From: Coriobacterium glomerans PW2
GTDB lineage: Bacteria; Actinomycetota; Coriobacteriia; Coriobacteriales; Coriobacteriaceae
Direction of reading: 5' to 3'
Assembly (NCBI RefSeq): GCF_000195315.1
Contig: NC_015389.1
Location: forward strand, 992,001 to 1,056,000
Length of the DNA stretch: 64,000 nt
Below, in pieces: positions 50,008-64,000 of the stretch (positions within the stretch are counted from its first letter, which is position 1; every line of letters begins with the position of its first letter). The translations under genes were made by a program, and so were the position numbers. The notes below the pieces were generated by a model, which was not told the DNA's origin, did no database searches, and saw only the letters and a list, made by a program, of their open reading frames with translations.

Positions 50008-51375
50008 ATGCACGTGATCTCCGCGGTTCTCTCCGTTGTTTTCTGGGGCGTGGTCCTGCTCTCGCCGCTTGTCTTCGTGCATGAGGGCGGTCACTTCCTC
50101 GCGGCGCGCGCCTGCGGGGTGCGTGTGACGGAGTTCTTTCTGGGTCTGCCGTTCCGCTGGCGGCTGAGTCACACCTCAAAGCGTTCGGGCACACGGTTCG
50201 GGGTGACGCCGATTCTGCTCGGAGGCTACGCCATGATCTCGGGCATGGATCCAGAGAGCAGCGAGTGGGCCCCGCAGGTTCTGAGGCTCGTGCACGAAGC
50301 GGGCTCGATGCGGGTCGCCGACATCGCTCGCGCCCTGTCGATCACGGAATATGAGGCGGGAGACGCGTGCGCGATGCTGGCCGGATGGGGCTCGCTCGCG
50401 CCGGTCGATGACGGACGTCACGAGTCGAAGCGCTCCGAGGAGAGCTATCCGAGCCGGTATGCGAGCGTTGCCCGAGACGCGGAGGGCAACACCGTCTTGG
50501 ATGGTCGCAGATTCGATCGGCACCATGCCACCTCTCAGGGGGAGCCATGGGAGCCACCGATGGAGGAGCGCGGCTTCTTCGAGCGCGAGAGGTCGCGAAC
50601 CTATCTGGGATCGAGCATCTGGAAGCGCGCGTGCATGCTGCTTGCGGGTATCGCTGTCAACATCTTGTCCGGCGTCCTGCTCATCATGTGCGTCTACTCG
50701 ATTATCGGCGTCACGGTGATCAAGGATGTGAACGCCGTCGGCGGTATCAAAGAGGGCTCGGCCGCGTCCGCAGCGGGCATCGAGGCGGGCGATCGCATCA
50801 TCTCGCTCGATGGAGAGACGACCGAGACATGGACCGATATCCTGCATGCGATCAAAGGCGCGCCCAAGGGCAGCGCTTTCTCGATCGAGTTCGAGCATGA
50901 TCGAGAACTTCGCAGCGCAAGCATCACGCTCGGCTCCGATGAGCCGCTCGGAATCCAGGCCACGACCGAGGTCGCGCATCTGAACCCCGTCGATTCAGCC
51001 AAGCTCTCGATATCATATCTCGCCGCCACCGGGCAAGCGGTCGTTCGACTGGTGCAGCCCCAGCACACCATGGAGGTGCTCGACAGCTCGACATCGATCG
51101 TGGGGATCTCGGTCATGTCGGCGCAGGCTGCATCGGTGGGAATCGCCACGTTTCTTCAGCTTGCCGGTCTGCTCTCGTTCTCCCTGGCCTTCATGAACCT
51201 GCTGCCGATCCCACCGCTGGACGGCGGCAAGCTCGTGTTCGAGGTCATCCAGGCGCTGCTTCCCCGTAAAATCCCCCTGAGGATACAAAACGCGGTCAAC
51301 ATCGCGGGAATCTTTATATTCGCGCTTCTGTTCATATACCTGCTGCGCGGGGACATTCTGCGCATCTTCTCCTGA
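50008..51375 (+). CDS. rseP: RseP-type site-2 protease with PDZ domain and an unusual cytosolic insertion
   Basis: An intramembrane metalloprotease of 455 residues. The zinc motif HEGGH is at residues 25-29 in the first helix, a PDZ domain spans about 225-310, and the C-terminal LLPIPPLDGGK loop supplies the third ligand. Between the first helix region and the second helix (starting near residue 205) lies an extra segment, about residues 80-197. Its first part looks like a small helix-turn-helix domain (VLRLVHEAGS, VADIARALSITEYEAGDACAML). The segment should lie in the cytosol. AAGGGC 6 bases upstream supports ATG 50008. It sits between dxr and ispG. Confidence 0.93.
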   Translation: MHVISAVLSVVFWGVVLLSPLVFVHEGGHFLAARACGVRVTEFFLGLPFRWRLSHTSKRSGTRFGVTPILLGGYAMISGMDPESSEWAPQVLRLVHEAGSMRVADIARALSITEYEAGDACAMLAGWGSLAPVDDGRHESKRSEESYPSRYASVARDAEGNTVLDGRRFDRHHATSQGEPWEPPMEERGFFERERSRTYLGSSIWKRACMLLAGIAVNILSGVLLIMCVYSIIGVTVIKDVNAVGGIKEGSAASAAGIEAGDRIISLDGETTETWTDILHAIKGAPKGSAFSIEFEHDRELRSASITLGSDEPLGIQATTEVAHLNPVDSAKLSISYLAATGQAVVRLVQPQHTMEVLDSSTSIVGISVMSAQAASVGIATFLQLAGLLSFSLAFMNLLPIPPLDGGKLVFEVIQALLPRKIPLRIQNAVNIAGIFIFALLFIYLLRGDILRIFS

Positions 51376-63327: not shown

Positions 63328-64000
63328 ATGTATAGGTTGTCGTTGTATTCGATCATCATCAGCGTGCTCGCATTGATCATCGGCATCGTCGTTCATGAGA
63401 GCGCGCATGCGCTCGCCGCGTATCTTCTTGGAGACGCGACCGCTCGCTCGCGCGGCCGCGTCTCGCTCAATCCTCTGAATCATATCGATCCGTTCGGCAC
63501 CGTTTTGCTGCCGCTGCTCATGATAGCGATGGGTGGACCGGTGTTCGCGTTCGCCAAGCCCGTACCGGTGCAGGTCAACAATCTCAGGCATCCCAAGCGC
63601 GACGAGCTTTTGGTCTCGCTCGCCGGTCCCGCCTCGAACATCGTGATCGCCTGCCTGTTCACGCTGCTGCTGAGATTGGTTCTCCATTCGGTCGCGATCT
63701 CTTCTGCGACTGATTTTATGGTCAGATCGATCATGGATCTGTCCGTCGAGGCGATTCAGATCAACCTCGCGCTCGCATTTTTCAATCTCATTCCGATCCC
63801 GCCGCTTGACGGGTCCGCCATCCTGGTCGTGTTCCTCAAGGGCCAGGCCCTGCGCACCTACTATGAGATCCAGCGCTATGCCATGTTCGCGTTGCTGATC
63901 ATGCTGTTCGTCTTGCCTCAGTTCTTCCGTATCGATCTGATCTCGCTGTATTTCAGCGTGACCGTGTACCCTGTATTTCATTTTCTGCTGTCATTCGCGA
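63328..64000 (+). CDS. Site-2 protease family (M50) protein, truncated by the window end
   Basis: Starts at ATG 63328 with GAGGCGG upstream and is open to the last base. It is a polytopic membrane metalloprotease without a PDZ domain in the visible 224 residues. The zinc motif HESAH is at residues 23-27, the FNLIPIPPLDGS loop holds the third ligand, and NPLNHIDPFGT matches Rip/SpoIVFB-like members. It is the second site-2 protease in the window and is compact compared with RseP. The small membrane protein just before it may be a partner. Confidence 0.92.
   Translation, partial: MYRLSLYSIIISVLALIIGIVVHESAHALAAYLLGDATARSRGRVSLNPLNHIDPFGTVLLPLLMIAMGGPVFAFAKPVPVQVNNLRHPKRDELLVSLAGPASNIVIACLFTLLLRLVLHSVAISSATDFMVRSIMDLSVEAIQINLALAFFNLIPIPPLDGSAILVVFLKGQALRTYYEIQRYAMFALLIMLFVLPQFFRIDLISLYFSVTVYPVFHFLLSFA

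Follow-up and report, generated by a model that had tools for sequence, protein, structure and literature searches.

A predicted acidic winged-helix domain in the cytosolic loop of RseP proteases across the Coriobacteriia

In many bacteria, proteases of the RseP type are important, if not essential. In this study, we analysed a stretch of 64,000 nucleotides (the window) from the genome of Coriobacterium glomerans PW2, which consists of one contig of 2,115,681 bases. The open reading frames around the rseP gene of the window were ordered pyrH-frr-uppS-cdsA-dxr-rseP-ispG-proS, which is a common neighbourhood for rseP. A second M50-family protease gene was found close to the window end (63364-63906, + strand); it is small, encodes HESAH and NLIPIPPLDG, and is not RseP. 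The features of the rseP gene and its product are listed in Table 1.

Table 1. Features of the window rseP gene and of the predicted protein (positions are those of the window)
Feature	Residues	Positions	Strand	Basis
rseP, 455 residues from ATG 50008, carrying the winged-helix insertion		50008-51375	+	TIGR00054, Peptidase_M50, structure match
HEGGH zinc-site motif in TM1	25-29	50080-50094	+	Invariant in alignment A2
MRE beta-loop with GGY (72-74)	63-80	50194-50247	+	GGY common with the E. coli MRE loop; modelled strands 63-66 and 73-77
Winged-helix domain (predicted)	84-153	50257-50466	+	AlphaFold2 of whole protein and of insert alone; Foldseek and VIA matches
Helix 3, would-be recognition helix, EYEAGDACAMLAG; acidic throughout the class	114-126	50347-50385	+	Charge over 51 sequences
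Wing loop, partly disordered	134-149	50407-50454	+	AlphaFold2; pLDDT <50 at 138-143
Accessory lobe, VARDAEGNTVLDGRRFDRHHATSQGEPWEPPM region	154-186	50467-50565	+	Class alignment; pLDDT 93-95 over most
Linker helix ahead of TYxGxxxWKR	187-195	50566-50592	+	AlphaFold2
Single extracytoplasmic PDZ domain	238-321	50719-50970	+	PDZ_2 and solved PDZ matches
NLLPIPPLDGG, third zinc-ligand motif	397-407	51196-51228	+	N397, P400, P402, D405, G406 and G407 invariant

The window protein scored 174 bits against the NCBIfam equivalog TIGR00054, above the cut-off of 147.55, and Pfam returned Peptidase_M50 at 140.9 bits and PDZ_2 at 36.5 bits (cut-off 27). Both zinc motifs of RseP, HExxH and NxxPxPxLDGG, were found. 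The model of the whole protein matched solved RseP structures, such as 9j83_A (Z 23.1, 333 residues aligned), and its PDZ domain matched solved PDZ domains of RseP homologues at Z 11-14. The closest named relatives are proteins of the Coriobacteriaceae, for example of Collinsella, with 50-57% identity. These results indicate that the window protein, as judged from its sequence, is a regular RseP, for which intramembrane proteolysis is predicted.

The protein differs from RseP elsewhere in the loop between TM1 and TM2. About 100 residues are inserted between the GGY of the MRE beta-loop, which in E. coli RseP spans Ile61-Glu75 (PMC10024687, PMC4597795), and TM2. The segment is bounded by GMDP (79-82) and by a conserved TYxGxxxWKR (198-207) that enters TM2, and the loop from just past GGY to WKR comprises 125 residues. 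The first-pass annotation had placed extra residues 80-197 in RseP from position 50245. Residue 80 does lie at 50245, and the presence of the segment was borne out by a class-wide profile and by a comparison of loop lengths. Its assignment to the cytosol agrees with the known topology of RseP, in which the TM1-TM2 loop faces the cytoplasm (PMC7728848, PMC4597795). By sequence position, the winged-helix domain begins directly after the MRE beta-loop. On either side of the segment, GM(D/E)P and the KR ahead of TM2 are also present in relatives with a short loop, as expected for a clean insertion. R195, T198, Y199 and R207 were strongly conserved in the class alignment.

The fold of the insert was then predicted. 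AlphaFold2 modelled the whole protein with 61 relatives at a mean pLDDT of 90.8 and a pTM of 0.84, giving helix 88-98, strand 100-102, helices 103-110 and 114-126, and strands 130-133 and 150-153. The pLDDT was 95-97 in the helices of the winged-helix domain and fell below 50 only in the part of the wing loop given in Table 1. This is the helix-turn-helix-wing order that had been read from the letters at first pass. The VIA-align matches listed for the whole model were taken up by PDZ and RseP structures and were uninformative on the insert, which was also modelled separately; the order H1-S1-H2-H3-S2-wing-S3 was obtained again, at a mean pLDDT of 84.3. Foldseek and VIA-align searches of the insert against the PDB returned nearly all winged helices, including MarR-type regulators, FtsK gamma, Z-alpha, SelB and ESCRT-II. 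VIA-align superposed the insert on FtsK gamma 2ve8_A over 66 of 67 residues (2.0 A, Z 6.6, TMt 0.76) and on 7bzh over 59 of 59 residues (1.8 A, Z 7.0). A Z of 7.0 was the highest and was tied among many structures, a middling value such as any small domain gives, so that the fold is identified and the subfamily is not. Structure prediction and fold search, which the first-pass annotation had proposed as its check, gave a compact helical domain, and we conclude with confidence in the prediction that the insert is a winged helix. The remainder of the insert forms the wing, the accessory lobe and the helix leading to TM2, and is mostly ordered in the AlphaFold2 model. In the class sequence alignment, the accessory lobe was longer in families f1, f2, f5 and f8 than in other lineages. 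It carries a motif, RD..GNT.YDG..FDR...T..GEPW, that is conserved in f1 and f2 and looser in f5 and f8.

A match to the window RseP was present in 392 of 398 Coriobacteriia genomes. RseP sequences were taken from families spread over the class and, outside it, from 24 other families of the phylum. Every Coriobacteriia family sampled had the insertion, with about 89-150 residues from the GGY flank to WKR; the longer forms occurred in the window's family and its closest relatives, because of the accessory lobe in the wing. The insert profile (A1) matched end to end in 38 of 38 Coriobacteriia genomes of the phylum sample (E 2e-21 to 6e-31); its matches beyond the class were only weak and partial, with E 1.4e-6 at best. 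RseP from 23 of the 24 outside families had a loop of 16-27 residues. The remaining family, f69, carries about 87 extra residues at the same site (L238, genome G558), probably helical; this insert was rejected as the same domain, being a different and unrelated helical segment. The RseP loop thus seems to tolerate independent domain insertions. Inside the class, a short loop was seen only in a sub-lineage of family f13 (genera g108, g117 and g123), where four proteins (L180, L241, L243 and L252) have lost the winged helix and have a loop of 26-27 residues, which makes them a natural control.

A tree was computed from RseP sequences with the insert removed. On this tree, on which 51 of 55 Coriobacteriia sequences carry the insertion, the class was monophyletic with a support of 100, and the insertion required two changes, which we read as a single gain at the base of the Coriobacteriia and a single loss. 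These results show that the winged helix is a class-wide, ancestral and vertically inherited part of RseP and not peculiar to the window protein. Aligning the relatives, as had been proposed for dating the insertion, thus placed it at the base of the class, and the segment is not just an ordinary disordered loop in all relatives.

We compared the domain with the PDZ domain of the same proteins. The window protein was 49% identical to other Coriobacteriaceae in the domain core and 34% identical in PDZ; pairwise identity within other orders was 36.5% and 32.8%, respectively. L124 was found in 51 of 51 class sequences and W127 in 46 of 51. The conservation indicates that the winged-helix domain is under constraint and is kept at least as well as PDZ. 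It is not indispensable, as one sub-lineage lost it. In family f3, which from its relatives we take to be Eggerthellaceae-like, the stretch from TM2 to NxxP was 115-140 residues in all 27 sequences, compared with about 190-220 elsewhere, and Pfam found no PDZ in the member L069. In these proteins (L114-L138, L068 and L069) PDZ is gone and the winged helix is kept, an architecture outside the described groups of site-2 proteases.

In profile-profile comparison, the insert matched the MarR_2 domains of related genomes with a probability of 95.8% (E 7.6e-9) and FtsK gamma with a probability of 85.7%. Pfam MarR_2 matched 10 of 34 insert members (best E 5e-6). The window segment itself stayed below the MarR gathering cut-offs (PF01047/PF12802; 16.5 against 24.6 and 14.2 against 27), and FtsK gamma (PF09397) was absent among its Pfam matches up to E 1; the member L163 scored 17.2 against PF09397, below the cut-off of 30.6. 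By sequence, MarR-type domains are its nearest relatives, with a weak but consistent similarity, and FtsK gamma comes next. It shares its topology with the MarR family (PF01047, PF12802) and differs in having an acidic helix 3, in lacking the basic DRR wing motif, which was absent from the insert in a sequence test, and in sitting inside a membrane protease. It resembles FtsK gamma in length and in its start (EDPLL..A..V), whereas the conserved basic residues of FtsK gamma helix 3 (YARAGRIMDMLEEK) are missing. A free-standing copy of the insert was sought in the window genome, where only generic winged helices were found (MarR, E 0.013; FtsK gamma, E 0.018), and in genomes with a domain-less RseP, where the best match had E 0.017.

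The domain is acidic. The net charge averaged -2.9 in helix 3 over 51 class sequences and -5.6 in the domain core over about 150 sequences, compared with +0.2 for MarR_2 and -1 for FtsK gamma domains of the window and related genomes. Other RseP proteins have short loops that are likewise somewhat acidic, and part of the acidity may thus be inherited context. The acidic charge may also do no more than hold the domain away from the anionic membrane. The wing and linker of the PDZ-less family are slightly basic (+1.7).

We next considered the sigma-factor context. Two Sigma70_r2 proteins are encoded in the window genome, where a zf-HC2 anti-sigma factor was not found. One genome of the PDZ-less family that kept the winged helix (G004) has one sigma factor. 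Among 16 relatives examined, a zf-HC2 anti-sigma domain was seen solely in genome G227 (family f5; its RseP is L318); in the others, the window genome among them, RseP seems to lack this class of substrate. Recognition of anti-sigma factors as the conserved purpose of the domain was rejected as a general explanation, the ECF machinery being missing in the window genome and in G004. The ECF sigma route is thus unlikely as a common purpose, and in G227 it is possible because zf-HC2 is present there.

RseP substrates are N-in, and how they are chosen is still debated, with most work directed at the outer PDZ filter. In E. coli RseP, the substrate is bound in an extended form by the MRE loop, which feeds it to the zinc site; the adjoining cytoplasmic C1N segment touches the substrate at an earlier stage (PMC4597795, PMC7728848, PMC10024687). 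On the outer side, the PDZ domains filter by size (PMC10202637). As the winged helix follows directly after the MRE loop, it may most simply be seen as an element for docking or gating in the cytosol. In this reading, an acidic winged helix of MarR-like descent was inserted once, at the base of the Coriobacteriia, into the cytosolic C1 loop directly past the MRE beta-loop and, going by its sequence position, would stand at the cytosolic mouth of the cleft. There we infer docking and gating, with protein rather than DNA as the kind of ligand. N-in substrates might be selected by the basic stretches that border them in the cytosol, for instance the n-region of cleaved signal peptides, and the acidic inner module and the outer PDZ filter would complement each other. 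The role may be a housekeeping one, which we propose because the window genome and one Eggerthellaceae-like genome lack the usual ECF sigma/anti-sigma machinery. We put this reading forward tentatively, as one that may well be right. A narrower version is more doubtful: the domain would be a gate that catches the basic flank of N-in substrates and passes it to the MRE beta-loop, and in the Eggerthellaceae-like family it would be the sole substrate selector after the loss of PDZ. If this is true, the Eggerthellaceae-like site-2 protease checks its substrates from the inner side of the cell.

Docking of a partner instead of a substrate is the chief alternative and accounts for the same observations. 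The domain would then hold a dedicated cytosolic or membrane protein, such as a regulator, a chaperone, an ABC subunit or a protease, and RseP would be kept in a complex or switched by it. Winged helices outside transcription often serve protein-protein contacts. ESCRT-II was among the best structural matches of the insert and cullins among its weak profile matches; an integrative model titled RASP-ECSA exists (9a6w, the top match of the whole-protein model), and SpoIVFB is under the control of partner proteins (PMC9042235). Against this, no co-conserved partner was found and the gene neighbourhood is ordinary. Partner docking is, in our view, possible and somewhat unlikely. The protease may also be tethered to a partner or a nascent chain, as the first-pass annotation proposed. 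The same ordinary neighbourhood leaves the link of the insert to the adjacent synthesis genes, suggested at first pass, unsupported.

The two remaining explanations give the domain either another ligand or none. With DNA or RNA as its ligand, the domain would anchor the protease at the nucleoid or on transcripts, and the nearest sequence relatives, the MarR and FtsK gamma domains, do bind DNA; the slightly basic wings and linkers of one family point the same way. However, almost all sequences have an acidic helix 3 and an acidic core, no basic residue of helix 3 is conserved among the class sequences, the DRR motif is missing, and a single membrane-bound domain would be an unusual reader of sequence. 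Because of the acidic core and helix 3, DNA binding of the usual kind is probably not to be expected; the DNA tether suggested by the first-pass annotation finds no support in these charges, and we regard nucleic-acid tethering as very improbable. A domain that binds nothing and was fixed by descent as a simple structural spacer would suit the f13 sub-lineage, which lives without it. Such a spacer would hardly be conserved no less than PDZ across the class, keep a near-invariant L124 and W127, and outlive PDZ in one family, and it appears improbable to us, if less so than the tether. Among these readings, the docking and gating module for N-in substrates is the one we prefer.

The whole class, comprising Collinsella, Olsenella and relatives from gut and environment, has, save for one sub-lineage, a folded domain, as predicted, adjoining the substrate-presenting beta-loop. 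If a module beside the active-site region grips protein, these proteases would choose or control their substrates in a manner so far undescribed. Searches of the literature for RseP with a winged helix or helix-turn-helix, for RseP of the Coriobacteriia and for Eggerthella RseP and PDZ found no description, in a coverage with few subscription papers, so that an earlier mention may exist. The proteins form a natural comparison set, with PDZ only (RseP from beyond the class and from the f13 sub-lineage), with PDZ and the winged helix, and with the winged helix only. Site-2 proteases have been divided into Group I with PDZ, Group III with CBS, and Groups II and IV with neither (PMC10202637); the combination of RseP with a winged helix lies outside these groups, the protease and the fold each being known. 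Pfam found PDZ and no CBS match in the window RseP, which separates it from Group III. The Group III proteases SpoIVFB and mjS2P likewise have a soluble accessory domain besides the membrane core and, as in the Eggerthellaceae-like members, PDZ is absent; their accessory domain is CBS and not a winged helix, whereas the domain of the Coriobacteriia interrupts the TM1-TM2 loop (groups as in PMC10202637). With the Group I proteases RseP, RasP and Rip1 (TIGR00054, M50), the Coriobacteriia protein shares HExxH, NxxPxPxLDGG, the MRE loop with GGY, PDZ between TM2 and TM3, and the overall fold, and to these it adds a winged helix of about 70 residues and an accessory lobe in the C1 loop.
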